A stretch of 64,000 nucleotides of DNA from Siphonodentalium dalli (Eukaryota > Mollusca > Scaphopoda > Gadilida > Siphonodentaliidae): NCBI GenBank assembly GCA_032622095.1, contig CP136064.1:249707827-249771826 (forward strand). Reading direction: 5' to 3'. Position numbers and translations under genes: made by a program. Positions 3,499 to 64,000 of the stretch are shown piece by piece. Numbering within the stretch: the first letter of the stretch is position 1; each line of letters opens with the position of its first letter. The notes under the pieces were generated by a model that ran no database searches, was not told the origin of the DNA, and was given only the letters and a program-made list of their open reading frames with translations.

Positions 3499-3502
3499 TT
3501 AA

Positions 3503-15994: not shown

Positions 15995-16014
15995 TCTATA
16001 TCTATATTTGCGAA

Positions 16015-19034: not shown

Positions 19035-19276
19035 TTAAACATATATTTTTCAATTGATACACGCATTATCCGCCGTCAATGGCTGATAATTACGTTTCAA
19101 ACGAACTACCTAACGTCAAAAGGTGTCTACTCTTTATGATAAAATCGGAAATGAGCCGGAATTGCCATTAAATTTATCGGGATGAGAGCAAGCTATGGTC
19201 GTTATCCCATTGAGGGAACATTCCGCTTTATGAAATTATGTTTTGAATAGTGGATATCATCATTCAACTAGGAGAT

Positions 19277-19440: not shown

Positions 19441-19640
19441 GTATAGTCATTATTACCTCATCACTAGAACCCCCTGTCCAAGTTTAGTTAATGACATTTG
19501 ATAATGTGAGACAACCGATGAGGGATTCCTTCTAATTGGCATTGCAGCAGACTTTTACAAATTTTATCAACATTTTCAATCAGGAAAATTTACCTGATCC
19601 AGGGTTAAAACATCTCTGTCTGAGCTCATCGTTTGATTAA

Positions 19641-20134: not shown

Positions 20135-20139
20135 TTAAG

Positions 20140-35350: not shown

Positions 35351-36586
35351 TATTTTGATGGAGAGGGAAATTTGGCCACATTTTTCCAGCTGGAGGTATA
35401 GAATGGTAATTTGTTCTATACGGACCCTCTCTGATGACCAATTAGGTCGAGCGCTAAGGGCCGAAACCTATCACACAAACAGGCTGTATTTGATGTCTGT
35501 TATACCAGAGTTACGCTCTTGAGAACTCTTTGCTGGTATAGTTTTTTCGATCCCAACTTTTTAAATGCTATCTTTTGGACATGGTCTTAGTAAACATTTT
35601 CCAAAATGGGTTAATTATTTTTCCTCCAAAACCATCAGGATATACTGATAGTCAAACACTGCATAACAATAAACATACACATAAACATACCACCAGAAAA
35701 GGTGTGCCATTTATAATAAGGTTTATAAAATCAAAATATATAATATCTGACAGCGATAAACTGTTGCTGTATGTATGCATCTATGGAAACCATTTAACTC
35801 TATCCATATATTTATAAATTTACTAACAATTTTCATCCTATGGGCAACGATAACCCTTAACGATATTATGAGTAACTGCTCGTCCAATAAGAGACGATAA
35901 CCTTCAACTATATATAGTTTGCCCAAATTATCATATCTGACATACACGTTAACATGTTGGCATAGAACTTAACTATGATATGAGAAAGGAGTGATATACA
36001 TTATAACTGTAAGATGTGCGTCGTATACATCATACATAAAATGGGAGGGGTACTATGCATCATAACTATGGATGGAAATGTGGTAATATACGTCATAAAC
36101 ATATATTTGGGAATTTGCAAACAATATCCATACATCTAATATACTACGATGACCTTGAACTATATTTATCGGGAGCTACATGTATATATTCTCATCCAAT
36201 GCACACTACGATGACCTTTAACTACATTTATCGGGAACTACAGGTATATATACTCATCCAATGCATGCTACGACGACCTTTATCTATATTTGTGTAACTA
36301 TGGGTGTGTAACTTCTCTGTATACTCAATATATACATGTATATGCCTTATACTATTATCGCATAATTAAAACTTCACATAACCGATGAATAATCAACCGT
36401 TCGACTATCCTAACTGTTTTTGTTGACTTTTAGATAGCCGTGGGTTCACGCCTTCCGGTTACCAGTCGATGCATCACGCGGGTTTTTATCTGCCTGCTCG
36501 GTGTGTCGGTGTGGTGCTTGCGGACCTTGCCAATATGTTATCATTCCTGACATCCCCTTTGGCATAATTGCCATAAACCATAAAAC
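35351..36586 (+). repeat. Direct duplication, copy 2 (~1.24 kb)
   Basis: Second copy, lacking a short CATTACTA-containing stretch near the minisatellite and carrying a few indels. Its right end lies 20 bp from the candidate poly(A) signal of the EGF gene. Confidence 0.9.
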
Positions 36587-36824: not shown

Positions 36825-37249
36825 TTAGGGGTACATGTAGACAAATAAGAAAGAGACCCACATCGTTAACATTATATAGATATTATGATTACTTCTAATT
36901 GAGCTGGAGTATGTTGTTGTTGCAGTGGTCGTTGTTGGTTGGACCGTGCTTGTTTCACTTGTTGATTGGGCCGAGCTTGCTTGACCAGTTGGTGTGACTG
37001 TGCGTGTTATATTCGTTGTGGGTGTGTTCGTTGTCGTTGGTGTGGCTCGGCTTATTTCACTTGTTGATTGGGTCGAGTTTGATTGACTCGCTGGTGTGGT
37101 TGGGTGCGTTTCACTTGTTGTGGGCATGTTCGTTGTCGTTGTTTGAGCCGAGCTTGTCCCACTTGTTTGTTGGATCGATCCTGTTTGTCCATTTGTTGTG
37201 GTTCGGTGTGTTTCAATTGATGTGGTCGTGTTCGTTGTCGTTGTTTCGT
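36825..37249 (-). CDS. Terminal exon: Ser/Thr-rich mucin-like stalk with C-terminal hydrophobic GPI-type signal
   Basis: The exon starts after an acceptor ending ATTATTGCAG with two bases AC, the same phase-1 start as the EGF exons, so it joins the last microexon (T|AC, Tyr). It encodes 140 residues plus stop. The first ~105 residues are three imperfect ~34-residue repeats rich in Thr and Ser, with N-glycosylation sequons (NTT, NST, NIT). The last ~19 residues are hydrophobic (IYIMLTMWVSFLFVYMYP) after a small-residue stretch (SSSIRSNHN) and reach the stop with no cytoplasmic tail, as expected of a GPI-attachment signal. A membrane anchor without a tail is the alternative. A second frame is open through 37052-37405 (NGCEV..., then Gln/Arg-rich), so an upstream exon or a different reading cannot be fully excluded. 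Confidence 0.68.
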
Positions 37250-40200
37250 CTGCAATAATCGATGGCATATAATAATACACACTGTCTGAACAGGTCGCAT
37301 TTGAGTTGGCTCAACACGAAGATATGTTATAATTTGATTGTCACAACCAGTTTCATAGTTTGGGATGTCAGATTTTGAATTTGTAACTTCGCACCCATTA
37401 ACCATAACATATTCCTAAATCTTTGAAGTTCTTCATTCCACGAATTTAAATTTCCACATGAATTCTAAAACATTTTCACATGTTGGAAACTTCCATCTTA
37501 ACACTCCAAAATATGAAGCAACTTCAAGCAAGGTTGAATTTGACCATTTTTGAATCAAAAGTTTGAAACCCTGAATGCACCTTTAACCACCAAATGTATA
37601 TACATCATGACTGTTGAGTCATGGCACTGTTTGGTTTCTGAATATTAAATATTAGATGCCAGAAATTGTCATGACTCAGAATTTATGCTAAATATTAGTT
37701 GCGTAAAGTTAATATTTTTACTATGTGCACTTATGTGCATACTTCTCAGCCAGGAGTTTTGTGAGGACTATATATGCTTTATGTTCTTGACAGGGCCATG
37801 GTTAATTAAGTTTATGTTTAGCGTCATCCATGATTATGTATAGTAACTCAGTAATGTAGTGAGTATTCATTGTTAATTATTCACGATATGTTTCTTAAAA
37901 TACTCATATAGTACAATGTGATTACTTAACACCAGCTTTGTTTACATTCATTTTATGTGAATGAATCAATAATTAATCGGATCATTATGATTTCCTGCCA
38001 AACAGGAAGTGCTGCGATTGGCACTAAAATTAAGCATAAAATTAATTAACCATGGCCTAACATTAACTAACATGAGGATGTGCAATTGCCTACAAACATT
38101 GCTTATGATGCTAAGGCTTAAGAGGATTAACCACTTTAGCAGCATTTTTAAAAAACAAAATGTCAACGTAGTGCACGTACATGTCTGGCACGTCCTGGGT
38201 TGGGCTACTTTGGCTGTACTGAATTGTTGTGGTTTAACCTGGCAGTGTGAAATCCACCGTTTATCTGCTTTGTGGAGGTTGTGTGATAACGCGTCCCATT
38301 GGATAAGCATATGAACTAGTATGATACTGAATTTGAACCATTGTTTTTGTGAAACATGAATTTAGATTATCAATCTTTTATCAAATCATGCATGGAAGAA
38401 AGCGGAGGTTGTACCCATCCGCAAAAAGGGTGACCATAGTAACCCCAACAATTACAGGCCTGTGTCGATACTTAGCGTGATGGGTAAAGTTTTCGAAAAA
38501 ATCGTTTTAAAAAAGCTTCTTGATCACCTAAACAAAAACAATCTTTTGTACGAACACCAATCAGGTTTCCTGCCCAACCATAGTACCGAGGGTCAATTAA
38601 TTGAAATATTTAATAATTTGCTTAAGGCTATTGATGATGACATTATGACATGTGCTGTATTTTGTGATGTATCAAAGGCTTTCGATAAAGTTTGGCACGA
38701 TGTGGTTATAGTAAAGACAAACAGCTACGGAATACATGTTAAAATACTACAGTGGTTTCGAAGCTAACTTAGTGGTCGATCACAAAGAATGCGATTAAAT
38801 TCTGAAACATCCCAATACAAAAGGATTGCGGCTGGCGTTCCTCAATGCTATGTACTGGGGCCTGTGTTTTTTTATTTTTGATATACATCAACGATATTGG
38901 GGATAGAGTTTCCTCCAAAACACGCCTTTACGCCGACGACACCTGTCTATTTGAAAGTCATAAAGACTTGCAACCATTGGAACGAACTCTTAGGTCGGTA
39001 TTCTTGAAAAGTAAGACGGTTGTGAAACAATCTGAAATCTTTTCGTTCAGCCCATGCCGATATTCTATGATATGGCCTACATACATTTCCAAATATTTAA
39101 AGATACGTAGATACGTGGATAGGCAACTGTTTACTCCAAACGGGGTGTTCTCACCATCAATATTTGTTTGTAGATTCCATATTGTGCTAGTTATTAAAAC
39201 TAGAAAGATAATCTTTCAACTACGAATTGTACTCGTAGTTTGTGAGCATTATGTCATATTACGTAATCCCAGTGGCTGCAGTCTGGCCATCATCAGCCAA
39301 TTAATTAATGTAATTCTAATATTAATGTGTTATTGGAAATGTGTGACATTCTTGTCATGCGTTTGCTGAATTTGAAGTTCGCCATTAACAGTGGTTATTG
39401 ATATTTAGACGAAAAGGAGTTATGTTTCGAAAACAATACATCAAACAATATACTAATAAAGGAACACATCCCTAATAAGATACCCATATAGCTAAAGACT
39501 CAGAAACGCAAACAAAACATTGTAGTAATCGTTTACGCTAAAGTAAATGCAATTTCCAACTTTTATTTTGTTCGGTAGGGAACAGTGATTGCATGTAGGA
39601 AATGATACTCACAGTTGTTCGTTTGGTTACCTGCAATGTTAGATTGATAGCAAGTGAGTGGTCATCTATGAGTCTGTTGGTGATGTGGACTCATCATATA
39701 AATTGGTGAAATAAGTAACTAGGCATTATCTCACATGATAGTTTAGCGCCCAGTGTGGATGTGTTGATGTATACTATAAATTGAGATCCAACTACTGAGG
39801 AATCTTAAAACATATTAGGAGATTCATGCTGCTGAAAATTAATAGAGTATGGTCAGTTTTAATGCCTAATACGAGACGCATGACTATAATATAATATTCT
39901 TCACAAAAGCTGTAAGGACTAAATTCGAAACAATGAACACGTTTAAGCTTATGCGGGGTGTCTCTGTTTGCGAATAAATCGTGCTCAAAAAGGTAATTGT
40001 GTCAACATTGTTGTTAAAGCGGTAATCTTTAAACGAACAGACTCAAACAAGAAAGAAAATCAAACTCAGTTTTCGACATTTAGTTTTCCAAACCATGCTC
40101 CATAATTCCGGGGGGGGGGGGTAAATTGCATCGGTATTCTCCAAAAATAATTAGATTTAGTTTATGTTCAAACAGGTCAGTATTCTTGAAAAGTAACACG

Positions 40201-43200
40201 GTTGTGAAACAATCTGAAATCTTTTCGTTCAGCCAATGCCGATATTCTATGGTATGGCCTACATACATTTACAAATATTTAAAGATACGTAGATACGTGG
40301 ATAGACAACTTTTTACTCCAAACTGGGTGTTCGCACCATTAATATTTGTTTGTATATTCCATATTGTGCTAGTTATTAAAACTGGAAAGATAATCTTTCA
40401 ACTACGAATTGTACTCGTAGTTTGTGAGCATTATGTCATATTACGTAATCCCAGTGGCTGCAGTCTGGCCGTCATCAGCCAATTAATTAATGCATGTATT
40501 TATGTAACAACGCGATATCTACGCTCCATGCCCATTGATACTGACATGACTTAATATCCGGCCAAATTGACCACGTGAATATATTATATAATTACTTCAA
40601 AATAGGCTCCTTTTTGTGCTGAAATTCGCTGCTATGAAAAAATGCACACCGAGAACGGAACATACATGTATAACTACCTATAACGAGACGTAACGGCATT
40701 CACGTGATTACACAGTGTGTATTGTGATTTCAATCACACCATCGTCACGAACTATAAATATTAATTTTCTTACATGGACGATTTGGTTGAGAATTGGTCA
40801 TTTTTACTTTTGAGTACTTCTGTGATTATCAGCTATCGATATATGGTTATCAGAGTTACATCAATGCTCACAATACATATGATGAATAATTGTTTATTTT
40901 AATTTACCTTGCACACAGCTTATCTGGGGATGCTTCAGTTTGCAAATCAATCGTTTTAAAAACGGTAAAATATTGATTCCATTATAAACCAGGTTGACGA
41001 TTTATTTAACAAAATGACCTGTATTTACCCAATATATAAATATATACTCGCTATACTCACATCTGTTTCCGGTCCATCCAGTGTAGCAATAGCAGGTGTA
41101 GTTTCCGTCCATACTGTTATCACCGCAAGAGCCGTGATCTCCACAAGGGTTATACACGCATGGTGACGTGTCTGTTGAAAACAAGGAACCCGGCTTTAAA
41201 GTGTGGTTAATTGATCACAATCTGTTCAAATCTTAGTGTTCTTAATAACTCGAATATTAATGTGTTATTGGAAATGTGTGACATTCTTACCATGCGTTTG
41301 CTGAATTTGACGTTCGCGTCAACAGTGATTATTGATATTTAGACTAAAAAGACATATGATTCGAAAACAATCCATCAAACAATATACTAATAAAGGAACA
41401 CATCCCTAATAAGATACCCATATAGCTAAAGACTCAGAAACGCAAACAAAACATTGTAGTAATCGTTTCCGCTAAAGTAAATGCAATTTCCAACTTTTAT
41501 TTTGTTCGGTAGGGAACAGTGATTGCATGTAGGAAATGATACTCACAGTTGTTCGTTTGGTTACCTGCAATGTTAGATTGATAGCAAGTGAGTGGTCATC
41601 TATGAGTCTGTTGGTGATGTGGACTCATCATATAAATTGGTGAAATAAGTAACTAGGCATTATCTCACATGATACTTTAGCGCCCAGTGTGGATGGGTTG
41701 ATCATACTATAAATTGATATCCAACTACTGAGGAATCTTAAAACATTATATTAGGAGATTCATGCTGCTGAAAATTAATAGAGTATGGTTAGTGTTAATG
41801 CCTAAAACGAGACGCATGACTATAATATAATATTCTTCACAAAAGCTGTAAGGTCTAAATTCAAAGTGCACAACGAGAACGGAACATACATGTATAACTA
41901 CCTATAACGGGACATAACCACATTCACGTGATTACATGGTGTGTATTGTGATTTCAATCACACCATTATCACGAACTATAAATATAAATTTTCTTACATG
42001 GACGATTTGGTTGAGAATTGGTAATTTTTACTTTTGAGTACTTCTGTGATTATCAGCTGACGATATATGGTTATCAGAGTTACATCAATGCTCACAATAC
42101 ATATGATGATTAATTGTTTATTTTAATTTACCTTGCACACAGCTTATCTGGGGATGCTTCAGTTTGCCGCAAATCAATCGTTTTCAAAACGGTAAAATGT
42201 TGATTCCATTATAAACCAGGTTGACGATTTATTTAACAAAATGACTTGTATTTTCGCAATATATAAATATATACTCGCCATATTCACAGCTGTGTCCTGT
42301 CCATCCAGTGTAGCAATTGCAGGTGTAGTTTCCCATACCGTTATCATAACAAGAGCCGTGATATCCACAAGGGTTATACACGCATGGTGACGTGTCTGTT
42401 GAAAACAAGGAACCCGGCTTTAAAGTGTGGTTAGTAGATCACAATCTGTACAAGCCTTAATGTTCTTAATAATTCGAATATTAATGTGTTATTGGAAATG
42501 TGTGACATTCTTGCCATGCGTTTGCTGAATTTGAAGTTCGCCATCAACAGTGATTATTGATATTTAGACGAAAAAGAGTTATGATTCGAAAACAATACAT
42601 CAAACAATATACCAATAAAGGAAGACGTACCTAATAAGATACACATATAGCTAAAGACTCAGAAACGCAAACAAAACATTGTAGTAATCGTTTCCGCTAA
42701 AGTAAATGCAATTTCCAACATTTATTTTGTTCGGTAGGGAACAGTGATTGCATGTAGGAAATGATACTCACAGTTGTTCGTTTGGTTACCTGCAATGGTA
42801 GATTGATAGCAAGTGAGTGGTCATCTATGAGTCTGTTGGTGATGTGGACTCATCGTATAAATTGGTGAAATAAGTAACTAGGCATTATCTCACATGATGG
42901 TTTAGCGCCCCGTGTGGATGGGTTGGTGTATACTATAAATTGAGATCCAACTACTGAGGAATCTTAAAACATTATATTAGGAGAGTCATGCTGCTGAAAA
43001 TTAATAGAGTATGGTCAGTGTTAATGCCTAAAACGAGACGCATGACTATAATATAATATTCTTAACAAAAGTTGTAAGGACTAAATTCGAAACAATGAAC
43101 ACGTTTAAGCTTATGCGGGGTGTCTCTGTTTGCAAATAAATCGTGCCCAAAAAGGTAATTGTGTCATCATTGTTGTCAAAGCGGTCATCTTTAAACGAAC

Positions 43201-46200
43201 AGACTCAAACAAGAAAGAAAATCAAACTCAGTTTTGGACATTTAGTTTTCCAAACCATGCTCCATAATTCCGGGGGGGGGGGGGTAAATTGCATCGGAAT
43301 TCTCCAAAAATAATTAGATTTAGTTTATGTTCAAACAGGTCAGTATTCTTGAAAAGTAACACGGTTGTGAAACAATCTGAAATCTTTTCGTTCAGCCAAT
43401 GCCGATATTCTATGGTATGGCCTACATACATTTACAAATATTTAAAGATACGTAGATACGTGGACAGACAACATTTTACTCCAAACTGGGTGTTCGCACC
43501 ATTAATATTTGTTTGTATATTCCATATTGTGCTAGTTATTAAAACTGGAAAGATAATCTTTCAACTACGAATTGTACTCGTAGTTTGTGAGCATTATGTC
43601 ATATTACGTAATCCCAGTGGCTGCAGTCTGGCCGTCATCAGCCAATTAATTAATGCATGTATTTATGTAACAACACGATATCTACGCTCCATGCCCATTG
43701 ATACTGACATGACTTAATATCCGGCCAAATTGACCACGTGCATATATTATATAATTACTTCAACATAGGCTCCTTTATGTGCTGAAATTCGCTGCTATGA
43801 AAAAATGCACACCGAGAACGGAACATACATGTATAACTACCTATAACGAGACGTAACGGCATTCACGTGATTACATATTGTGTATTGTGATTTCAATCAA
43901 ACCATCGTCACGAACTATAAATATTAATTTTCTTACATGGACGATTTGGTTGAGAATTGGTAATTTTTACTTTTGAGTACTTCTGTGATTATCAGCTAAC
44001 GATATATGGTTATCAGAGTTACATCAATGCTCACAATACATATGATGAATAATTGTTTATTTTAATTTACCTTGCACACAGCTTATCTGGGGATGCTTCA
44101 GTTTGCAAATCAATCGTTTTCAAAACGGTAAAATGTTGATTCCATTATAAACCAGGTTGACGATTTATTTAACAAAATGACCTGTATTTACCCAATATAT
44201 AAATATATACTCGCTATACTCACATCTGTTTCCGGTCCATCCAGTGTAGCAATAGCAGGTGTAGTTTCCGTCCATACTGTTATCACCGCAAGAGCCGTGA
44301 TCTCCACAAGGGTTATACACGCATGGTGACGTGTCTGTTGAAAACAAGGAACCCGGCTTTAAAGTGTGGTTAATTGATCACAATCTGTTCAAATCTTTGT
44401 GTTCTTAATAACTCGAATATTAATGTGTTATTGGAAATGTGTGACATTCTTACCATGCGTTTGCTGAATTTGACGTTCGCGTCAACAGTGATTATTGATA
44501 TTTAGACTAAAAAGACATATGATTCGAAAACAATCCATCAAACAATATACTAATAAAGGAACACATCCCTAATAAGATACCCATATAGCTAAAGACTCAG
44601 AAACGCAAACAAAACATTGTAGTAATCGTTTCCGCTAAAGTAAATGCAATTTCCAACTTTTATTTTGTTCGGTAGGGAACAGTGATTGCATGTAGGAAAT
44701 GATACTCACAGTTGTTCGTTTGGTTACCTGCAATGTTAGATTGATAGCAAGTGAGTGGTCATCTATGAGTCTGTTGGTGATGTGGACTCATCATATAAAT
44801 TGGTGAAATAAGTAACTAGGCATTATCTCACATGATACTTTAGCGCCCAGTGTGGATGGGTTGATCATACTATAAATTGATATCCAACTACTGAGGAATC
44901 TTAAAACATTATATTAGGAGATTCATGCTGCTGAAAATTAATAGAGTATGGTTAGTGTTAATGCCTAAAACGAGACGCATGACTATAATATAATATTCTT
45001 CACAAAAGCTGTAAGGTCTAAATTCAAAGTGCACAACGAGAACGGAACATACATGTATAACTACCTATAACGGGACATAACCACATTCACGTGATTACAT
45101 GGTGTGTATTGTGATTTCAATCACACCATTATCACGAACTATAAATATAAATTTTCTTACATGGACGATTTGGTTGAGAATTGGTAATTTTTACTTTTGA
45201 GTACTTCTGTGATTATCAGCTGACGATATATGGTTATCAGAGTTACATCAATGCTCACAATACATATGATGATTAATTGTTTATTTTAATTTACCTTGCA
45301 CACAGCTTATCTGGGGATGCTTCAGTTTGCCGCAAATCAATCGTTTTCAAAACGGTAAAATGTTGATTCCATTATAAACCAGGTTGACGATTTATTTAAC
45401 AAAATGACTTGTATTTTCGCAATATATAAATATATACTCGCCATATTCACAGCTGTGTCCTGTCCATCCAGTGTAGCAATTGCAGGTGTAGTTTCCCATA
45501 CCGTTATCATAACAAGAGCCGTGATATCCACAAGGGTTATACACGCATGGTGACGTGTCTGTTGAAAACAAGGAACCCGGCTTTAAAGTGTGGTTAGTAG
45601 ATCACAATCTGTACAAGCCTTAATGTTCTTAATAATTCGAATATTAATGTGTTATTGGAAATGTGTGACATTCTTGCCATGCGTTTGCTGAATTTGAAGT
45701 TCGCCATCAACAGTGATTATTGATATTTAGACGAAAAAGAGTTATGATTCGAAAACAATACATCAAACAATATACCAATAAAGGAAGACGTACCTAATAA
45801 GATACACATATAGCTAAAGACTCAGAAACGCAAACAAAACATTGTAGTAATCGTTTCCGCTAAAGTAAATGCAATTTCCAACATTTATTTTGTTCGGTAG
45901 GGAACAGTGATTGCATGTAGGAAATGATACTCACAGTTGTTCGTTTGGTTACCTGCAATGGTAGATTGATAGCAAGTGAGTGGTCATCTATGAGTCTGTT
46001 GGTGATGTGGACTCATCGTATAAATTGGTGAAATAAGTAACTAGGCATTATCTCACATGATGGTTTAGCGCCCCGTGTGGATGGGTTGGTGTATACTATA
46101 AATTGAGATCCAACTACTGAGGAATCTTAAAACATTATATTAGGAGAGTCATGCTGCTGAAAATTAATAGAGTATGGTCAGTGTTAATGCCTAAAACGAG

Positions 46201-52200: not shown

Positions 52201-55200
52201 GTTTGGTTACCTGCAATGGTAGATTGATAGCAAGTGAGTGGTCATCTATGAGTCTGTTGGTGATGTGGACTCATCGTATAAATTGGTGAAATAAGTAACT
52301 AGGCATTATCTCACATGATGGTTTAGCGCCCCGTGTGGATGGGTTGGTGTATACTATAAATTGAGATCCAACTACTGAGGAATCTTAAAACATTATATTA
52401 GGAGAGTCATGCTGCTGAAAATTAATAGAGTATGGTCAGTGTTAATGCCTAAAACGAGACGCATGACTATAATATAATATTCTTAACAAAAGTTGTAAGG
52501 ACTAAATTCGAAACAATGAACACGTTTAAGCTTATGCGGGGTGTCTCTGTTTGCAAATAAATAGTGCCCAAAAAGGTAATTGTGTCATCATTGTTGTCAA
52601 AGCGGTCATCTTTAAACGAACAGACTCAAACAAGAAAGAAAATCAAACTCAGTTTTGGACGTTTAGTTTTCCAAACCATGCGCCATAATTCCGGGGGGGG
52701 GGTAAATTGCATCGGAATTCTCCAAATATAATTAGATTTAGTTTATGTTGAAACAGGTCAGTATTCTTGAGAAGTAACACGGTTGTAAAACAATCTGAAA
52801 TCTTTTCGTTCAGCCCATGCCGATATTCTATGGTATGGCCTACATACATTTCCAATAATATGTGTTTGTAGATTCCATATTGTGCTAGTTATTAAAACTA
52901 GAAAGATAATCTTTCAACTACGAATTGTACTCGTAGTTTGTGAGCATTATGTCATATTACGTAATCCCAGTGGCTGCAGACTGGCCGTCATCAGCCAATT
53001 AATTAATGCATGTATTTATATAACACGATATCTACGCTCCATGTCCATTGATACTGACATGACTTAATATCGTGCCAAATTGACGACGAGAATATTTTAT
53101 CTAATTACTTCAAATTAGGCTCCTTTTGGTGCTGAAATTCGCTTCTTTGAAAAAATGCACACCGAGAACGGAACATACATGTATAACTACCTATAACGGG
53201 ACATAACCGCATTCAAGTGATTATATAGTGTGTATTGTGATTTCAACCACACCATTGTCACGAACTATAAATATAAATTTTCTTAAATGGACGATTTGGT
53301 TGAGAATTGGTAATTTTTACGCTTGAGTACTTCTGTGGTTATCAGCTATCGATATATGGTTATCAGAGTTACATCAATGCTCACAATACATATGATGAAT
53401 AATTGTTTATTTTAATTTACCTTGCACACAGGTTATCTGGGGATGCTTCAGTTTGCAAATCAATCGTTTTCAAAACGGTAAAATGTTGATTCCATTATAA
53501 ACCAGGTTGACGATTTATTTAACAAAATGACCTGTATTTACCCAATATATAAATATATACTCGCTATACTCACATCTGTTTCCGGTCCATCCAGTGTAGC
53601 AATTGCAGGTGTAGTTTCCCATACCGTTATCATAACAAGAGCCGTGATATCCACAAGGGTTATACACGCATGGTGACGTGTCTGTTGAAAACAAGGAACC
53701 CGGCTTTAAAGTGTGGTTAGTAGATCACAATCTGTACAAGCCTTAATGTTCTTAATAATTCGAATATTAATGTGTTATTGGAAATGTGTGACATTATTGC
53801 CATGCGTTTGCTGAATTTGAAGTTCGCCATCAACAGTGATTATTGATATTTAGACGAAAAAGAGTTATGATTCGAAAACAATACATCAAACAATATACCA
53901 ATAAAGGAAGACGTACCTAATAAGATACACATATAGCTAAAGACTCAGAAACGCAAACACAACATTGTAGTAATCGTTTCCGCTAAAGTAAATGCAATTT
54001 CCAACTTTTATTTTGTTCGGTAGGGAACAGTGATTGCATGTAGGAAATGATACTCACAGTTGTTCGTTTGGTTACCTGCAATGTTAGATTGATAGCAAGT
54101 GAGTGGTCATCTATGAGTCTGTTGGTGATGTGGACTCATCATATAAATTGGTGAAATAAGTAACTAGGCATTATCTCACATGATACTTTAGCGCCCAGTG
54201 TGGATGGGTTGATGTATACTATAAATTGATATCCAACTACTGAGGAATCTTAAAACATTATATTAGGAGATTCATGCTGCTGAAAATTAATAGAGTATGG
54301 TTAGTGTTAATGCCTAAAACGAGACGCATGACTATAATATAATATTCTTCACAAAAGCTGTAAGGTCTAAATTCAAAGTGCACAACGAGAACGGAACATA
54401 CATGTATAACTACCTATAACGGGACATAACCACATTCACGTGATTACATGGTGTGTATTGTGATTTCAATCACACCATTATCACGAACTATAAATATAAA
54501 TTTTCTTACATGGACGATTTGGTTGAGAATTGGTAATTTTTACTTTTGAGTACTTCTGTGATTATCAGCTGACGATATATGGTTATCAGAGTTACATCAA
54601 TGCTCACAATACATATGATGATTAATTGTTTATTTTAATTTACCTTGCACACAGCTTATCTGGGGATGCTTCAGTTTGCCGCAAATCAATCGTTTTCAAA
54701 ACGGTAAAATGTTGATTCCATTATAAACCAGGTTGACGATTTATTTAACAAAATGACTTGTATTTTCGCAATATATAAATATATACTCGCCATATTCACA
54801 GCTGTGTCCTGTCCATCCAGTGTAGCAATTGCAGGTGTAGTTTCCCATACCGTTATCATAACAAGAGCCGTGATATCCACAAGGGTTATACACGCATGGT
54901 GACGTGTCTGTTGAAAACAAGGAACCCGTCTTTAAAGTGTGGTTAGTAGATCACAATCTGTACAAGTCTTAATGTTCTTAATAATTCGAATATTAATGTG
55001 TTATTGGAAATGTGTGACATCCTTGCCATGCGTTTGCTGAATTTGAAGTTCGCCATCAACAGTGATTATTGATATTTAGACGAAAAAGAGTTATGATTCG
55101 AAAACAATACATCAAACAATATACCAATAAAGGAAGACGTACCTAATAAGATACACATATAGCTAAAGACTCAGAAACGCAAACAAAACATTGTAGTAAT

Positions 55201-58200
55201 CGTTTCCGCTAAAGTAAATGCAATTTCCAACATTTATTTTGTTCGGTAGGGAACAGTGATTGCATGTAGGAAATGATACTCACAGTTGTTCGTTTGGTTA
55301 CCTGCAATGGTAGATTGATAGCAAGTGAGTGGTCATCTATGAGTCTGTTGGTGATGTGGACTCATCGTATAAATTGGTGAAATAAGTAACTAGGCATTAT
55401 CTCACATGATGGTTTAGCGCCCCGTGTGGATGGGTTGGTGTATACTATAAATTGAGATCCAACTACTGAGGAATCTTAAAACATTATATTAGGAGAGTCA
55501 TGCTGCTGAAAATTAATAGAGTATGGTCAGTGTTAATGCCTAAAACGAGACGCATGACTATAATATAATATTCTTAACAAAAGTTGTAAGGACTAAATTC
55601 GAAACAATGAACACGTTTAAGCTTATGCGGGGTGTCTCTGTTTGCAAATAAATAGTGCCCAAAAAGGTAATTGTGTCATCATTGTTGTCAAAGCGGTCAT
55701 CTTTAAACGAACAGACTCAAACAAGAAAGAAAATCAAACTCAGTTTTGGACATTTAGTTTTCCAAACCATGCGCCATAATTCCGGGGGGGGGGGGTAAAT
55801 TGCATCGGAATTCTCCAAATATAATTAGATTTAGTTTATGTTGAAACAGGTCAGTATTCTTGAGAAGTAACACGGTTGTAAAACAATCTGAAATATTTTC
55901 GTTCAGCCCATGCCGATATTCTATGGTATGGCCTACATACATTTCCAATAATATGTGTTTGTAGATTCCATATTGTGCTAGTTATTAAAACTAGAAAGAT
56001 AATCTTTCAACTACGAATTGTACTCGTAGTTTGTGAGCATTATGTCATATTACGTAATCCCAGTGGCTGCAGACTGGCCGTCATCAGCCAATTAATTAAT
56101 GCATGTATTTATATAACACGATATCTACGCTCCATGTCCATTGATACTGACATGACTTAATATCGTGCCAAATTGACGACGAGAATATTTTATCTAATTA
56201 CTTCAAATTAGGCTCCTTTTGGTGCTGAAATTCGCTTCTTTGAAAAAATGCACACCGAGAACGGAACATACATGTATAACTACCTATAACGGGACATAAC
56301 CGCATTCAAGTGATTATATAGTGTGTATTGTGATTTCAACCACACCATTGTCACGAACTATAAATATAAATTTTCTTAAAGGTACGGTTGGCCTTGGCGG
56401 TGGGTATCCTGTGAAAATAATTCCACCCGTCAAAAACCGCCACAAACAGAAAGAACAACAAAATGTAGACAGACTTTGTCCGTATACAAATAAGAAATAT
56501 CGCATAAACAGTATGTTATGGTCATATTTTTGACCATTGTTATGTAAACAAAAGCCTAAAAAGTTACTTTTCTGGTGTTTGTTTATATTATGATGGTAAA
56601 CATAAAGAGCGTTCTTTGTGGGTGAATTCCTGATATGGAACGAATAAAGAGCGTTTATGTCATTTGTGTGTGATTAGCCAGCAGCATTGTGTTGTCTTCT
56701 GTAACACAATCAGGCTCTTGCTTAGGTAAAATATAGAAAATCTTTATGATAACATGCTGTTTACGCGATGGTCATGGTATATATGAACGAAACTGTATGC
56801 ATTTTAATGTTTTTCTGTTTACGGTGATTGGAAAAAATATGAATATTTTCGACAACTAAGGCCTCACGTGCCTTTAAATGGACGATTTGGTTGAGAATTG
56901 GTAATTTTTACGCTTGAGTACTTCTGTGGTTATCAGCTATCGATATATGGTTATCAGAGTTACATCAATGCTCACAATACATATGATGAATAATTGTTTA
57001 TTTTAATTTACCTTGCACACAGGTTATCTGGGGATGCTTCAGTTTGCAAATCAATCGTTTTCAAAACGGTAAAATGTTGATTCCATTATAAACCAGGTTG
57101 ACGATTTATTTAACAAAATGACCTGTATTTACCCAATATATAAATATATACTCGCTATACTCACATCTGTTTCCGGTCCATCCAGTGTAGCAATTGCAGG
57201 TGTAGTTTCCCATACCGTTATCATAACAAGAGCCGTGATATCCACAAGGGTTATACACGCATGGTGACGTGTCTGTTGAAAACAAGGAACCCGGCTTTAA
57301 AGTGTGGTTAGTAGATCACAATCTGTACAAGCCTTAATGTTCTTAATAATTCGAATATTAATGTGTTATTGGAAATGTGTGACATTATTGCCATGCGTTT
57401 GCTGAATTTGAAGTTCGCCATCAACAGTGATTATTGATATTTAGACGAAAAAGAGTTATGATTCGAAAACAATACATCAAACAATATACCAATAAAGGAA
57501 GACGTACCTAATAAGATACACATATAGCTAAAGACTCAGAAACGCAAACACAACATTGTAGTAATCGTTTCCGCTAAAGTAAATGCAATTTCCAACTTTT
57601 ATTTTGTTCGGTAGGGAACAGTGATTGCATGTAGGAAATGATACTCACAGTTGTTCGTTTGGTTACCTGCAATGTTAGATTGATAGCAAGTGAGTGGTCA
57701 TCTATGAGTCTGTTGGTGATGTGGACTCATCATATAAATTGGTGAAATAAGTAACTAGGCATTATCTCACATGATGGTTTCGCGCCCCGTGTGGATGGGT
57801 TGGTGTATACTATAAATTGAGATCCAACTACTGAGGAATCTTAAAACATTATATTAGGAGAGTCATGCTGCTGAAAATTAATAGAGTATGGTCAGTGTTA
57901 ATGCCTAAAACGAGACGCATGACTATAATATAATATTCTTAACAAAAGTTGTAAGGACTAAATTCGAAACAATGAACACGTTTAAGCTTATGCGGGGTGT
58001 CTCTGTTTGCAAATAAATAGTGCCCAAAAAGGTAATTGTGTCATCATTGTTGTCAAAGCGGTCATCTTTAAACGAACAGACTCAAACAAGAAAGAAAATC
58101 AAACTCAGTTTTGGACATTTAGTTTTCCAAACCATGCGCCATAATTCCGGGGGGGGGGGTAAATTGCATCGGAATTCTCCAAATATAATTAGATTTAGTT

Positions 58201-61200
58201 TATGTTGAAACAGGTCAGTATTCTTGAGAAGTAACACGGTTGTAAAACAATCTGAAATCTTTTCGTTCAGCCCATGCCGATATTCTATGGTATGGCCTAC
58301 ATACATTTCCAATAATATGTGTTTGTAGATTCCATATTGTGCTAGTTATTAAAACTAGAAAGATAATCTTTCAACTACGAATTGTACTCGTAGTTTGTGA
58401 GCATTATGTCATATTACGTAATCCCAGTGGCTGCAGACTGGCCGTCATCAGCCAATTAATTAATGCATGTATTTATATAACACGATATCTACGCTCCATG
58501 TCCATTGATACTGACATGACTTAAAATCGTGCCAAATTGACGACGAGAATATTTTATCTAATTACTTCAAATTAAGCTCCTTTTGGTGCTGAAATTCGCT
58601 TCTTTGAAAAAATGCACACCGAGAACGGAACATACATGTATAACTACCTATAACGGGACATAACCGCATTCAAGTGATTATATAGTGTGTATTGTGATTT
58701 CAACCACACCATTGTCACGAACTATAAATATAAATTTTCTTAAATGGACGATTTGGTTGAGAATTGGTAATTTTTACGCTTGAGTACTTCTGTGGTTATC
58801 AGCTATCGATATATGGTTATCAGAGTTACATCAATGCTCACAATACATATGATGAATAATTGTTTATTTTAATTTACCTTGCACACAGGTTATCTGGGGA
58901 TGCTTCAGTTTGCAAATCAATCGTTTTCAAAACGGTAAAATGTTGATTCCATTATAAACCAGGTTGACGATTTATTTAACAAAATGACCTGTATTTACCC
59001 AATATATAAATATATACTCGCTATACTCACATCTGTTTCCGGTCCATCCAGTGTAGCAATTGCAGGTGTAGTTTCCCATACTGTTATCATAACAAGAGCC
59101 GTGATATCCACAAGGGTTATACACGCATGGTGACGTGTCTGTTGAAAACAAGGAACCCGGCTTTAAAGTGTGGTTAGTAGATCACAATCTGTACAAGCCT
59201 TAATGTTCTTAATAATTCGAATATTAATGTGTTATTGGAAATGTGTGACATTATTGCCATGCGTTTGCTGAATTTGAAGTTCGCCATCAACAGTGATTAT
59301 TGATATTTAGACGAAAAAGAGTTATGATTCGAAAACAATACATCAAACAATATACCAATAAAGGAAGACGTACCTAATAAGATACACATATAGCTAAAGA
59401 CTCAGAAACGCAAACACAACATTGTAGTAATCGTTTCCGCTAAAGTAAATGCAATTTCCAACTTTTATTTTGTTCGGTAGGGAACAGTGATTGCATGTAG
59501 GAAATGATACTCACAGTTGTTCGTTTGGTTACCTGCAATGTTAGATTGATAGCAAGTGAGTGGTCATCTATGAGTCTGTTGGTGATGTGGACTCATCATA
59601 TAAATTGGTGAAATAAGTAACTAGGCATTATCTCACATGATACTTTAGCGCCCAGTGTGGATGGGTTGATGTATACTATAAATTGATATCCAACTACTGA
59701 GGAATCTTAAAACATTATATTAGGAGATTCATGCTGCTGAAAATTAATAGAGTATGGTTAGTGTTAATGCCTAAAACGAGACGCATGACTATAATATAAT
59801 ATTCTTCACAAAAGCTGTAAGGTCTAAATTCAAAGTGCACAACGAGAACGGAACATACATGTATAACTACCTATAACGGGACATAACCACATTCACGTGA
59901 TTACATGGTGTGTATTGTGATTTCAATCACACCATTATCACGAACTATAAATATAAATTTTCTTACATGGACGATTTGGTTGAGAATTGGTAATTTTTAC
60001 TTTTGAGTACTTCTGTGATTATCAGCTGACGATATATGGTTATCAGAGTTACATCAATGCTCACAATACATATGATGATTAATTGTTTATTTTAATTTAC
60101 CTTGCACACAGCTTATCTGGGGATGCTTCAGTTTGCCGCAAATCAATCGTTTTCAAAACGGTAAAATGTTGATTCCATTATAAACCAGGTTGACGATTTA
60201 TTTAACAAAATGACTTGTATTTTCGCAATATATAAATATATACTCGCCATATTCACAGCTGTGTCCTGTCCATCCAGTGTAGCAATTGCAGGTGTAGTTT
60301 CCCATACCGTTATCATAACAAGAGCCGTGATATCCACAAGGGTTATACACGCATGGTGACGTGTCTGTTGAAAACAAGGAACCCGTCTTTAAAGTGTGGT
60401 TAGTAGATCACAATCTGTACAAGTCTTAATGTTCTTAATAATTCGAATATTAATGTGTTATTGGAAATGTGTGACATCCTTGCCATGCGTTTGCTGAATT
60501 TGAAGTTCGCCATCAACAGTGATTATTGATATGCAGACGAAAAAGAGTTATGATTCGAAAACAATACATCAAACAATATACCAATAAAGGAAGACGTACC
60601 TAATAAGATACACATATAGCTAAAGACTCAGAAACGCAAACAAAACATTGTAGTAATCGTTTCCGCTAAAGTAAATGCAATTTCCAACATTTATTTTGTT
60701 CGGTAGGGAACAGTGATTGCATGTAGGAAATGATACTCACAGTTGTTCGTTTGGTTACCTGCAATGGTAGATTGATAGCAAGTGAGTGGTCATCTATGAG
60801 TCTGTTGGTGATGTGGACTCATCGTATAAATTGGTGAAATAAGTAACTAGGCATTATCTCACATGATGGTTTAGCGCCCCGTGTGGATGGGTTGGTGTAT
60901 ACTATAAATTGAGATCCAACTACTGAGGAATCTTAAAACATTATATTAGGAGAGTCATGCTGCTGAAAATTAATAGAGTATGGTCAGTGTTAATGCCTAA
61001 AACGAGACACATGACTATAATATAATATTCTTAACAAAAGTTGTAAGGACTAAATTCGAAACAATGAACACGTTTAAGCTTATGCGGGGTGTCTCTGTTT
61101 GCAAATAAATAGTGCCCAAAAAGGTAATTGTGTCATCATTGTTGTCAAAGCGGTCATCTTTAAACGAACAGACTCAAACAAGAAAGAAAATCAAACTCAG

Positions 61201-64000
61201 TTTTGAACATTTAGTTTTCCAAACCATGCGCCATAATTCCGGGGGGGGGGGTAAATTGCATCGGAATTCTCCAAATATAATTAGATTTAGTTTATGTTGA
61301 AACAGGTCAGTATTCTTGAGAAGTAACACGGTTGTAAAACAATCTGAAATCTTTTCGTTCAGCCCATGCCGATATTCTATGGTATGGCCTACATACATTT
61401 CCAATAATATGTGTTTGTAGATTCCATATTGTGCTAGTTATTAAAACTAGAAAGATAATCTTTCAACTACGAATTGTACTCGTAGTTTGTGAGCATTATG
61501 TCATATTACGTAATCCCAGTGGCTGCAGACTGGCCGTCATCAGCCAATTAATTAATGCATGTATTTATATAACACGATATCTACGCTCCATGTCCATTGA
61601 TACTGACATGACTTAATATCGTGCCAAATTGACGACGAGAATATTTTATCTAATTACTTCAAATTAGGCTCCTTTTGGTGCTGAAATTCGCTTCTTTGAA
61701 AAAATGCACACCGAGAACGGAACATACATGTATAACTACCTATAACGGGACATAACCGCATTCAAGTGATTATATAGTGTGTATTGTGATTTCAACCACA
61801 CCATTGTCACGAACTATAAATATAAATTTTCTTAAATGGACGATTTGGTTGAGAATTGGTAATTTTTACGCTTGAGTACTTCTGTGGTTATCAGCTATCG
61901 ATATATGGTTATCAGAGTTACATCAATGCTCACAATACATATGATGAATAATTGTTTATTTTAATTTACCTTGCACACAGGTTATCTGGGGATGCTTCAG
62001 TTTGCAAATCAATCGTTTTCAAAACGGTAAAATGTTGATTCCATTATAAACCAGGTTGACGATTTATTTAACAAAATTACCTGTATTTACCCAATATATA
62101 AATATATACTCGCTATACTCACATCTGTTTCCGGTCCATCCAGTGTAGCAATTGCAGGTGTAGTTTCCCATACCGTTATCATAACAAGAGCCGTGATATC
62201 CACAAGGGTTATACACGCATGGTGACGTGTCTGTTGAAAACAAGGAACCCGGCTTTAAAGTGTGGTTAGTAGATCACAATCTGTACAAGCCTTAATGTTC
62301 TTAATAATTCGAATATTAATGTGTTATTGGAAATGTGTGACATTATTGCCATGCGTTTGCTGAATTTGAAGTTCGCCATCAACAGTGATTATTGATATTT
62401 AGACGAAAAAGAGTTATGATTCGAAAACAATACATCAAACAATATACCAATAAAGGAAGACGTACCTAATAAGATACACATATAGCTAAAGACTCAGAAA
62501 CGCAAACACAACATTGTAGTAATCGTTTCCGCTAAAGTAAATGCAATTTCCAACTTTTATTTTGTTCGGTAGGGAACAGTGATTGCATGTAGGAAATGAT
62601 ACTCACAGTTGTTCGTTTGGTTACCTGCAATGTTAGATTGATAGCAAGTGAGTGGTCATCTATGAGTCTGTTGGTGATGTGGACTCATCATATACATTGG
62701 TGAAATAAGTAACTAGGCATTATCTCACATGATACTTTAGCGCCCAGTGTGGATGGGTTGATGTATACTATAAATTGATATCCAACTACTGAGGAATCTT
62801 AAAACATTATATTAGGAGATTCATGCTGCTGAAAATTAATAGAGTATGGTTAGTGTTAATGCCTAAAACGAGACGCATGACTATAATATAATATTCTTCA
62901 CAAAAGCTGTAAGGTCTAAATTCAAAGTGCACAACGAGAACGGAACATACATGTATAACTACCTATAACGGGACATAACCACATTCACGTGATTACATGG
63001 TGTGTATTGTGATTTCAATCACACCATTATCACGAACTATACATATAAATTTTCTTACATGGACGATTTGGTTGAGAATTGGTAATTTTTACTTTTGAGT
63101 ACTTCTGTGATTATCAGCTGACGATATATGGTTATCAGAGTTACATCAATGCTCACAATACATATGATGATTAATTGTTTATTTTAATTTACCTTGCACA
63201 CAGCTTATCTGGGGATGCTTCAGTTTGCCGCAAATCAATCGTTTTCAAAACGGTAAAATGTTGATTCCATTATAAACCAGGTTGACGATTTATTTAACAA
63301 AATGACTTGTATTTTCGCAATATATAAATATATACTCGCCATATTCACAGCTGTGTCCTGTCCATCCAGTGTAGCAATTGCAGGTGTAGTTTCCCATACC
63401 GTTATCATAACAAGAGCCGTGATATCCACAAGGGTTATACACGCATGGTGACGTGTCTGTTGAAAACAAGGAACCCGTCTTTAAAGTGTGGTTAGTAGAT
63501 CACAATCTGTACAAGTCTTAATGTTCTTAATAATTCGAATATTAATGTGTTATTGGAAATGTGTGACATCCTTGCCATGCGTTTGCTGAATTTGAAGTTC
63601 GCCATCAACAGTGATTATTGATATTTAGACGAAAAAGAGTTATGATTCGAAAACAATACATCAAACAATATACCAATAAAGGAAGACGTACCTAATAAGA
63701 TACACATATAGCTAAAGACTCAGAAACGCAAACAAAACATTGTAGTAATCGTTTCCGCTAAAGTAAATGCAATTTCCAACATTTATTTTGTTCGGTAGGG
63801 AACAGTGATTGCATGTAGGAAATGATACTCACAGTTGTTCGTTTGGTTACCTGCAATGGTAGATTGATAGCAAGTGAGTGGTCATCTATGAGTCTGTTGG
63901 TGATGTGGACTCATCGTATAAATTGGTGAAATAAGTAACTAGGCATTATCTCACATGATGGTTTAGCGCCCCGTGTGGATGGGTTGGTGTATACTATAAA
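36825..64000 (-). CDS. Multi-EGF-domain protein gene with interleaved 18-bp microexons and a mucin-like C-terminus (5' end outside window)
   Basis: Spliced minus-strand gene. Fifteen EGF exons alternate with 18-nt microexons at 63833-63850, 62607-62624, 60741-60758, 59515-59532, 57649-57666, 55284-55301, 54058-54075, 52193-52210, 50967-50984, 49101-49118, 47875-47892, 45935-45952, 44710-44727, 42772-42789, 41547-41564 and 39613-39630. A terminal exon follows at 37249-36825. EGF exons begin after CAACAG and end before GTGAGT or GTGAAT. Microexons begin after TTGCAG and end before GTGAGT. Every exon starts and ends in phase 1, so any number of pairs keeps frame. Joined, the window encodes roughly 780 residues: repeats of 42-43 residues (six-cysteine EGF plus linker NQTNNYTSP), then a Thr/Ser stalk. 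No calcium-binding EGF signature precedes Cys1. The start codon, signal peptide and upstream exons lie beyond 64000. The specific gene is not recognised; Notch-like or fibropellin-like EGF proteins are only architectural analogues. Confidence 0.82.
37412..38392 (-). other. Intron of the EGF gene, 3' part
   Basis: Lies between the last microexon and the terminal exon. No further EGF or linker exon found; the remaining part of the intron is the LINE fragment and U0. Confidence 0.6.
38393..38993 (+). pseudogene. LINE reverse-transcriptase fragment abutting the EGF array
   Basis: Conserved blocks in order: WKKAEVVPIRKKGD, NYRPVSILSVMGKVFEKIV, HQSGFLPNHST, FCDVSKAFDKVWHD, AAGVPQ...LGPVFF and the catalytic loop LYADDTCLF (YADD at 38929-38940). 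An in-frame stop after WFRS and a frameshift near 38880 make it a pseudogene. It ends exactly where U0 begins and lies in the intron between the last microexon and the terminal exon, antisense to the gene. Confidence 0.85.
38994..40175 (-). repeat. Truncated end unit (U0) of the 3.1-kb EGF array
   Basis: Starts abruptly at 38994 against a LINE fragment. Matches full units to about 39310, then jumps at AATTAATGTAATTCTAATAT to sequence equivalent to 41250. About 760 bp including one EGF exon are missing; the microexon 39613-39630 remains. Confidence 0.85.
39613..39630 (-). CDS. Most 3' microexon (18 nt), last before the mucin exon
   Basis: Reads GTAACCAAACGAACAACT. The leading GT completes the Cys6 codon of EGF exon 41061-41171; then NQTNN; the final T is completed by AC of the next exon (Tyr). 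It is the only microexon not followed by an EGF exon, because the end unit has lost one (see unit at 38994). Confidence 0.72.
41061..41171 (-). CDS. EGF exon, A type (111 bp)
   Basis: Pattern C-x4-C-x5-C-x10-C-x-C-x8-C with the last Cys split T|GT. Includes GDHGS before Cys3, DGNYT before Cys4 and GWTGNR before Cys6. Donor is a good GTGAGT; acceptor tract is TTCCTTGTTTTCAACAG. Last EGF before the stalk. Its upstream partner is microexon 41547-41564 across a 375-nt intron. Confidence 0.82.
42288..42395 (-). CDS. EGF exon, B type (108 bp)
   Basis: Differs from the A type by GYHGS, YDNGM with one codon fewer between Cys3 and Cys4, and GHS before Cys6. The donor is GTGAAT, weaker at +5. Followed by microexon 41547-41564 across ~723 nt. 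Confidence 0.8.
44224..44334 (-). CDS. EGF exon, A type (111 bp)
   Basis: Same residues as the exon at 41061-41171, with GTGAGT donor. Followed by microexon 42772-42789 across a long intron of ~1.43 kb that carries the long-monomer-specific segment. Confidence 0.82.
45451..45558 (-). CDS. EGF exon, B type (108 bp)
   Basis: GTGAAT donor; GHS before Cys6. Followed by microexon 44710-44727. Second B exon of the two oldest-looking units. Confidence 0.8.
47391..47498 (-). CDS. EGF exon, chimeric A/B (108 bp)
   Basis: The 5' two thirds are B sequence (GYHGS, YDNGM, CNC) but the 3' end is A sequence (GNR, GTGAGT donor). The switch lies in the ~20 bp encoding CYTGWTG. First chimeric exon counted from the 3' end; followed by microexon 45935-45952. 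Confidence 0.81.
48617..48724 (-). CDS. EGF exon, B type (108 bp)
   Basis: GTGAAT donor. Followed by microexon 47875-47892. The flanking intron has GTCTTTAAAG where the more 3' units have GGCTTTAAAG, a marker of the later subclass. Confidence 0.8.
50483..50590 (-). CDS. EGF exon, chimeric A/B (108 bp)
   Basis: B body with A-type GNR end and GTGAGT donor; followed by microexon 49101-49118. Identical in protein to 47391-47498. Confidence 0.81.
51709..51816 (-). CDS. EGF exon, B type (108 bp)
   Basis: GTGAAT donor; followed by microexon 50967-50984. Confidence 0.8.
53574..53681 (-). CDS. EGF exon, chimeric A/B (108 bp)
   Basis: GTGAGT donor with B body; followed by microexon 52193-52210. Confidence 0.81.
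54800..54907 (-). CDS. EGF exon, B type (108 bp)
   Basis: GTGAAT donor; followed by microexon 54058-54075. Confidence 0.8.
56380..56873 (-). mobile_element. TTAA-flanked MITE, subfamily A, inserted in an EGF-array intron
   Basis: 494 bp between direct TTAA copies at 56376-56379 and 56874-56877. Imperfect terminal inverted repeats: AGGTACGGTTGGCCTTGG against AGGCACGTGAGGCCTTAG. Sister units have the uninterrupted site TTTTCTTAAATGGACG, which shows insertion into one TTAA with its duplication. TTAA targeting is typical of piggyBac-type elements. No transposase ORF, so non-autonomous. Confidence 0.88.
57165..57272 (-). CDS. EGF exon, chimeric A/B (108 bp), next to the inserted MITE
   Basis: GTGAGT donor. 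Its downstream intron, before microexon 55284-55301, holds the 494-bp MITE 285 bp past the donor. The next EGF upstream is another chimeric exon, not a B exon, because one short monomer is missing here. Confidence 0.81.
59031..59138 (-). CDS. EGF exon, chimeric A/B (108 bp) with G-to-S change
   Basis: Like the other chimeric exons except YDNSM instead of YDNGM before Cys4. Followed by microexon 57649-57666. Confidence 0.81.
60257..60364 (-). CDS. EGF exon, B type (108 bp)
   Basis: GTGAAT donor; followed by microexon 59515-59532. Confidence 0.8.
62123..62230 (-). CDS. EGF exon, chimeric A/B (108 bp)
   Basis: GTGAGT donor; followed by microexon 60741-60758. Confidence 0.81.
63349..63456 (-). 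CDS. EGF exon, B type (108 bp)
   Basis: Most 5' complete EGF exon in the window; GTGAAT donor; followed by microexon 62607-62624. Confidence 0.8.
63833..63850 (-). CDS. Most 5' microexon in window (18 nt)
   Basis: Same 18 bases as the other fifteen microexons. Its GT must complete a Cys codon from an EGF exon beyond 64000, so the array continues off the right edge. Confidence 0.75.

Follow-up and report, generated by a model that had tools for sequence, protein, structure and literature searches.

A 64,000-nt stretch of the genome of the scaphopod Siphonodentalium dalli (contig CP136064.1, here C4; C4:249707827-249771826, in a genome of 2.2 Gb and 9 contigs), referred to as the window below, contains on its minus strand part of a gene in which exons for single EGF domains alternate strictly with an 18-nt microexon. 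We put the probability at roughly 55% that this microexon is a real linker exon, which would code for NQTNN, provide two N-glycosylation motifs and have been duplicated together with its EGF exon. That the gene is transcribed, that the microexon is included and with which donor, and that the product is glycosylated and anchored in the membrane are predictions from the genomic sequence.

An array of alternating microexons and EGF exons

All 16 copies of GTAACCAAACGAACAACT in the window, read on the minus strand between positions 39613 and 63850, are exact; each is preceded by TTGCAG and followed by GTGAGT, and each of the 15 intervals between them contains one EGF exon. The counts and flanks of an initial annotation of the window were thereby confirmed, and the intron boundaries it had given (41172/41546 and 41565/42287) fit predicted exons at 41061-41171, 41547-41564 and 42288-42395. 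The annotation was also right that the two kinds of exons alternate strictly, that all are in phase 1-1 and that microexon and EGF exon were amplified as one block. The continuous joined reading it had described is open in the window, where the 15 EGF exons and 16 microexons are free of frame-shifting changes, but the whole array as assembled is broken by frame-shifting bases. As to the donors of the EGF exons, GTGAAT replaces the expected GTGAGT in 7 of the 15 exons in the window, including the annotation's own example at 42288.

The complete array extends over about 91 kb (C4:249838226 down to 249747433) and consists of 53 microexons in strict alternation with 52 EGF exons, m(Em)x52. Our searches required or nearly required the flanks of the microexons and EGF exons, but any copy overlooked for this reason would have left a gap in the alternation, and there is none. 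The microexon is exact in 49 copies, carries one substitution in three (two read ...GAACATCT, one reads GTAACGAAA...) and has an extra base (A), giving a length of 19 nt, in one. The loss of a microexon from an interval of 3813 bp was considered and rejected, since the 19-nt copy is located there. All 53 copies start with GT and are flanked by ttgcag and gtgagt, and the sequence predicts a very short exon of a length divisible by three (18 nt in 52 of 53 copies) with consensus splice sites (ttgcag^...^gtgagt, with ^ marking exon boundaries). The EGF exons are 111 nt (32 copies), 108 nt (19 copies) or 109 nt (one copy) long and are preceded by the acceptor tcaacag in all 52 cases. The introns from microexon to EGF exon measure 370-376 nt, those from EGF exon to microexon 723-1933 nt. 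When the whole 2.2-Gb genome was searched with up to three substitutions allowed, the only further matches were two exact copies, which belong to an inverted paralogue at a distance of 107 kb, and no older copies turned up outside the array and this paralogue. By eye, the end of the microexon with its donor, GAACAACT^GTGAGTAT, resembles the end of the EGF exons of the NRC type, AAACAGAT^GTGAGTAT, and duplication of an exon end may have given rise to the microexon.

The repeated block is predicted to comprise two exons, the 18-nt linker microexon and one EGF exon, both of phase 1-1. Whole units, including their introns, are recent copies of each other with a mean difference of 3.4%, and the nearest relatives are 0-2.75% apart and often located 2-7 or about 30 units away. 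Judged from the unit sequences, this pattern of relatedness is that of block duplication combined with exchange within the array, and unequal exchange or gene conversion would have multiplied the block and kept its copies similar. The array has grown by duplication of exon pairs in the manner proposed for elastin, which is a likeness in process and not membership in the elastin family. Because the array goes back to few duplication events, its copies are not independent observations; the finding is less striking than the number of identical copies implies.

The surrounding gene and its predicted product

According to the sequence, the array forms the middle of one gene, which starts with a signal-peptide exon and a small domain exon and ends with a Thr/Ser-rich stalk carrying a hydrophobic tail. 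Phase-1 exons fit the array on both sides, namely the domain exon ending in GAAG^gtgaga and the stalk exon starting at ttgcag^AC. Joining the microexon in phase 1 to the domain exon creates a Gly codon (G^GT), and joining it to an EGF exon at the donor assigned by the initial annotation recreates the codon of the sixth cysteine (C6; T^GT), while its 3' end always contributes to a Tyr codon (T^AC) in front of either an EGF domain or the stalk. The 108-111 nt EGF exons and the stalk exon of about 425 nt account for most of the predicted coding sequence. We propose that one nuclear gene encodes a glycoprotein, either secreted or located at the cell surface, in which a signal peptide and a small domain are followed by about 52 EGF domains and then by a mucin-like Thr/Ser-rich stalk with a hydrophobic tail. 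The signal peptide and the hydrophobic C-terminal tail without a cytoplasmic part were judged by eye, and the tail ending at the stop codon would suit a glycosylphosphatidylinositol-anchored protein.

The EGF assignment is based on the model PF00008 (Pfam EGF), which matched over three units with 43.4 bits (cut-off 21.5), and on six cysteines in EGF spacing, as in Notch-type EGF repeat proteins; the best relatives of solved structure were EGF domains of Notch1 (E 1.6e-23). The EGF exons show the phase 1-1 of the one-domain-per-exon pattern, in which C6 lies inside the exon; here, C6 would be split by the GT donor of the initial annotation and would lie inside the exon if a GC donor further downstream is used. 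The domain exon did not match any Pfam model. The stalk exon did not match the ZP domain known from HrVC70-like egg-coat proteins, which other exons of the gene yet to be located could hold.

The microexon is most probably spliced into the transcript, which would result in the sequence C6-NQTNN-Y-TSP-C1 between consecutive domains; use of the downstream GC donor instead would extend this to C6-E-Y-G/S-NQTNN-Y-TSP-C1. The microexon would thereby lengthen the linker and introduce the N-glycosylation motifs NQT and NYT, the latter of which arises only across the exon junction. The joined models contain 144 N-glycosylation motifs with the microexon versus 66 or 41 without it.

Microexon inclusion and donor choice

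To judge how easily such a segment occurs by chance, we used a rule that was set after seeing the 18 nt and demands C/TAG with at least 8 pyrimidines in the preceding 15 bases, 6-36 nt open in phase 1, and GTRAGT. On the minus strand, this rule yielded 53 candidates, of which 52 were the copies of 18 nt and one came from the 73 kb beyond the array, so that the array introns held no further candidate; on the plus strand, the same 164 kb gave four candidates, all of them outside the array. The chance rate is therefore about 0.02 per kb, or roughly 0.02-0.04 per ancestral unit of 1.2-1.9 kb. Since all copies go back to a single one, their multiplicity adds nothing to this test. Use of the GT donor would additionally require a microexon that starts with GT or GC to rebuild the cysteine, which introduces a further factor of about 1/8. 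The low chance rate and the GT start favour a real exon without amounting to proof. A role in recursive splicing appears unlikely: the microexon start (TTGCAG^GTAACC) matches the donor consensus at 7 of 9 bases, but introns of 0.4-1.9 kb do not need such a step.

Whether C6 is complete within the EGF exon depends on the donor used at its end. For comparison, we collected 20 EGF domains from ten other loci of the same genome, some of which are near-identical to each other; they represent 12 of the 15 matches outside the array and the paralogue, the three left out being two on C1 and one on C3. In 12 of these 20 domains, a GTR donor is located exactly 9 nt past the cut of the initial annotation, i.e., two codons and one base after C6. 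Of the others, two have the donor 6 nt further and one runs straight into another EGF domain, and the remaining five, all from one locus with open frames of 157-260 codons, lack a phase-compatible GTR within 30 nt. In the array, all 52 copies have GCGAGTA at this usual position. The donor of the initial annotation is contained in TGT GAG TAT and occurs in three haplotypes, namely GTGAGTATA in 26, GTGAGTATG in 12 and GTGAATATG in 14 exons, and reads GTGAGT in 38 of the 52. It may be wrong for some or all of the exons, given the different position of the donor in the 12 sampled EGF domains. Measured against the nine-base donor consensus (A/C)AG^GT(A/G)AGT (excerpt of PMC2490688), which we preferred to duplex energies with an 11-base U1 end, which are not locked in position, GTGAGT matches at seven and GTGAAT at five bases, and the GC site matches at seven bases after G and at six after A. 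All 14 exons with the weak GT donor carry the better form of the GC site, as if each exon had to retain one donor that works; with only three haplotypes in existence, the evidence for this is weak. An extension of the EGF exon past the GC site was rejected, since two copies (units 22 and 27) have a stop codon just beyond it. As a separate observation on these haplotypes, 11 of the 53 microexon copies have CTACC or CTGCC instead of CTAAC at -12 to -8, and all 11 precede an EGF exon with the GTGAAT donor, while 3 of the 14 GTGAAT exons follow CTAAC.

PF00008, the EGF model in widest use, cannot distinguish the splice cases, because it stops short of C6 (44.3 bits without and 43.9 bits with C6). 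The model EGF_Teneurin scored 38.1 bits for the GT donor with the microexon, 33.9 bits for direct joining from the GC donor, 32.4 bits for the GC donor with the microexon and 24.7 bits if C6 was lost.

In its most far-reaching form, the linker-exon reading would make every EGF domain dependent on the microexon for its last disulfide: the normal donor would have been lost by a change from GT to GC, splicing would have moved 9 nt upstream into the C6 codon, and an 18-nt exon starting with GT would rebuild the cysteine together with a glycosylated linker, the pair then being multiplied to 52 copies. We consider this version doubtful. If it were true, inclusion or skipping of the microexon would switch all domains between the folded and the misfolded state. 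More generally, should transcripts confirm the predicted structure, about 50 near-identical natural replicates of a microexon, its acceptor and a rival donor pair would be present in one gene, including a few natural variants (GTGAGT/GTGAAT, A^GC/G^GC, CTAAC/CTACC), in which microexon recognition, the use of GC donors and the co-ordination of repeated splicing choices would be measurable on single long reads. The gene would then also be a case of a protein domain that is complete only with a microexon spliced in.

With the GC site in use, the EGF domain would not need the microexon for its completion, and the microexon would be either optional or no exon. The best-surviving alternative, which we still consider unlikely, assumes the latter: the 18 nt would be copied intron sequence, and the EGF domains would be joined directly from the GC donor as C6-E-Y-(D or N)-T-S-P-C1 with a linker of ordinary length. 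This would agree with the position of the GTR donor in the 12 other EGF domains of the genome mentioned above and with the open reading of the array joined in this mode. TGT GAG/GAA is common after C6 in ordinary EGF domains, and GTGAG occurs there in 3 of the 20 sampled ones, so the GTGAG of the annotated donor may simply be coding sequence; the GAG/GAA difference in 14 copies would also be silent, and the introns are as constant as the 18 nt. However, GC donors make up less than 1% of all donors and usually occur in a stronger context (excerpt of PMC2490688) than the 7 (G type) or 6 (S type) of 9 matching bases found here. An upstream GTGAGT donor exists in most of the exons, and it would have to be by chance that the 18 nt have splice sites on both sides and match the phase.

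A regulated cassette, which would be included in some cells and skipped in others, with the two donors 9 nt apart deciding on the dependence of C6, overlaps with the linker-exon reading in that the microexon is a real exon in both, and appears rather improbable to us as the full explanation. No stop codon occurs in the joined array under any of the four splice modes (GT donor with the microexon, GT direct, GC direct, GC with the microexon), which are all in frame; for this test, the frame-shifted EGF copy was left out and the consensus 18 nt were used at every place. Direct splicing from the GT donor strips C6 from every domain, leaving 255 instead of 306 cysteines. TGC is present at the acceptor in 53 of 53 microexon copies and CTAAC upstream in 42 of 53, and there is no long pyrimidine tract; TGCAG is common at ordinary acceptors. 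One exon of the genome shows similarity to SRRM_C (eMIC) with 24.6 bits, which is below the cut-off of 27, and one bacterial control was also matched below the cut-off. UGC near the acceptor, a CUAAY branch site and a long pyrimidine tract are features reported for eMIC (SRRM3/4)-dependent exons in flies (excerpt of PMC8797185), and GC donors are enriched at alternative splice sites (excerpt of PMC2490688). These resemblances give a thin hint at regulated inclusion, against which stand the missing pyrimidine tract, the 11 of 53 copies without CTAAC and the sub-threshold eMIC match; moreover, 53 cassettes regulated in step would be unusual.

Several observations weigh against the microexon as a functional linker exon in an intact gene. 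The donor needed at the C6 codon has the weak form GTGAAT in 14 of 52 EGF exons, the exon or exons linking the signal peptide (phase 0 donor) to the domain exon (phase 1 acceptor) were not found, and a search for spliced retrocopies with the microexon-EGF junction, serving as a stand-in for complementary DNA, returned none at up to three mismatches. The initial annotation had regarded the constancy of the microexon as special, which did not hold up: the microexon is alike everywhere because the whole block is alike through recent copying. Among 51 aligned units, 2 of 18 microexon columns are variable compared to 161 of 947 in the other introns (p=0.75), and we rejected the sameness of the 18 nt as evidence for selection on this basis. 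Both distinct substitutions in the microexon alter an amino acid, and the EGF exons are as variable as the introns (19 of 111 columns in the same units). In the stretch reaching 60 columns upstream and 48 columns downstream from the first base of the microexon, only 7 of 108 columns are variable versus 161 of 947 in the other introns (Fisher p=0.003), but this stretch was picked after looking at the data. The most constant 78-column windows listed start 91-98 columns upstream of the microexon (4 variable columns versus 5 for the window ending with the microexon), so the constant stretch consists mostly of intron. Of the 15 variable codons in 51 EGF copies, 12 change the amino acid; this count leaves out the frame-shifted copy, and the sixth cysteine was added computationally. 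From random single changes, about 248 replacements, 69 silent changes and 25 stops would be expected. No stop arose, and the five cysteines located wholly within the EGF exon were never altered in the 51 copies; purifying selection on the array is thus suggested by the cysteines only.

The joined array as assembled also contains 90 stop codons, all of them after the EGF copy with an extra base. This reading was assembled from all EGF exons together with the 52 microexons that a substitution search had returned, a set that does not contain the 19-nt microexon. Both the frame-shifted EGF copy and the 19-nt microexon belong to units 29-32 (C4:249780985-249787909, about 7 kb, outside the window). 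Of the array's 33 private small-insertion columns, 24 fall within these 4 of the 52 units, most of them being single repeated bases; two large insertions in other units were left out of this count. The extra bases therefore probably represent assembly errors in poorly polished sequence. That the array is non-functional, either as an expanding tandem duplication of a degenerate segment or as a copy-number artefact of the assembly without a full-length product, would agree with the frame-shifting bases and the stops following them, with amino-acid changes about as frequent as without selection and with the single EGF exon of the paralogue, but appears the least probable explanation, because the extra bases are confined to a short stretch rich in single-base insertions as expected from poor polishing, length and frame are kept in the other 51 EGF copies and 52 microexons, the five cysteines are never lost, and both ends of the array carry fitting exons common to the paralogue.

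Precedents, inverted paralogue and further features

EGF domains encoded by one exon each are ordinary, and the claim of novelty made for the constant microexon between them stands only in part. We did not find a description of a microexon repeated between all EGF domains in the open-licence PMC literature, but the single parts have precedents. The closest parallel in process is elastin (tropoelastin), in which two kinds of exons alternate many times in an array proposed to have grown by duplication of exon pairs (excerpt of PMC3291537); elastin is a vertebrate matrix protein with cross-linking domains and without EGF domains or a microexon, and we do not claim any sequence relation. In splice insert A of teneurin-3, a spliced linker of nine residues between EGF7 and EGF8 alters the assembly and the relative placement of the domains (excerpt of PMC11058771). 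The predicted peptide of the array gene is likewise a short spliced sequence in the linker between two EGF domains, but teneurin-3 has one insert in one linker, whereas the array has a copy in every linker. The micro-exon genes of schistosomes encode secreted proteins with small symmetric exons (excerpt of PMC4350168), as predicted for the gene described here; in those genes the microexons make up most of the coding region, whereas here they alternate with EGF exons of 108-111 nt. Tandem EGF domains in a surface protein, which is predicted in our case, are shared with HrVC70/HrVC120 and with Notch-type proteins with one EGF domain per exon. In HrVC70 of Halocynthia, variation affects the C3-C4 interval as well as the connecting regions (excerpt of PMC9265791), and HrVC70/HrVC120 contain 12-13 EGF domains and a ZP domain, in contrast to the about 52 EGF domains, the separate linker exon and the stalk without a ZP match of the array gene. 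Finally, the camel WAP gene, as another gene for a cysteine-rich domain, contains a GC donor and uses an unlikely cryptic splice site (excerpt of PMC6350295), similar to other GC-AG introns and to the candidate GC donor proposed here; its cryptic site is an acceptor at another intron, whereas the array presents rival donors 9 nt apart in each EGF exon.

A second, inverted gene copy occupies C4:249920-249955 kb on the plus strand and shows the same order of parts, i.e., the signal-peptide exon, the domain exon, one microexon-EGF-microexon set and stalk exons. Its signal-peptide exon is identical at 156 of 156 nt, its domain exon differs by 6 nt and 5 residues, and both of its microexons are exact. 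The aligned stretches of the two genes, which consist mostly of introns, share about 95-98% identity for the most part, and the paralogue has thus arisen too recently for a test of selection on the microexon. The signal-peptide and domain exons matched only the array gene and this paralogue, so no diverged relative is at hand in which the conservation of the microexon could be compared with diverged introns. The two genes are divergently oriented with their first exons about 60 kb apart (C4:249861-249921 kb) and contain about 52 EGF exons versus one. The stalk region of the paralogue is itself repeated (C4:249949001-249955172), with three copies about 1911 bp apart that each have an acceptor, a tail and a stop of their own, and with one further copy that is partial; these repeated exons could be alternative last exons.

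Table 1. Exons and related features of the array gene. Positions refer to the window unless given as C4 coordinates.
Feature	Position	Strand	Details
Part of the microexon-EGF array in the window	39613..63850	minus	16 microexons alternating with 15 EGF exons
Signal-peptide exon, coding (predicted)	C4:249861232 to ~249861077	as array, upstream	phase 0 donor
Domain exon (predicted)	~C4:249843572-249843408	as array, upstream	phase 1 acceptor; ends GAAG^gtgaga
Microexon copy	63833..63850	minus	furthest upstream in the window by gene order
EGF exon, HSC type	63349..63456	minus	108 nt; cysteine-6 donor GTGAAT, G^GC 9 nt on
Microexon copy	62607..62624	minus	
EGF exon, NRC type	62123..62230	minus	cysteine-6 donor GTGAGT, A^GC 9 nt on
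Microexon copy	42772..42789	minus	
EGF exon	42288..42395	minus	example of the initial annotation; cysteine-6 donor GTGAAT
Microexon copy	41547..41564	minus	example of the initial annotation
EGF exon	41061..41171	minus	final EGF exon of the array
Microexon copy	39613..39630	minus	final copy; no EGF exon found beyond, stalk is the next predicted exon
Array-intron remnant after the final microexon	38992..39310	minus	EGF exon of the unit missing; 39159-39310 and 38992-39092 match unit positions 1069-1322
Last coding exon (predicted)	36825..37249	minus	Thr/Ser-rich stalk and hydrophobic C-terminal tail to the stop; acceptor ttattgcag^AC, phase 1

In a comparison with Rfam, the window did not give any match. 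A dispersed element of about 500 bp is inserted in two units of the array and occurs elsewhere in the window in whole or partial copies of about 92-99.6% identity, together with weaker copies; its locations in the window are 56376-56877 and 19613-20138, 2994-3503, 18673-19040 and 15851-15995. Downstream of the stalk exon, the segments at 32509-33082 and 35726-36291, about 3.2 kb apart, share the same open frame and a near-identical tandem repeat of 62 nt and represent an additional local duplication.

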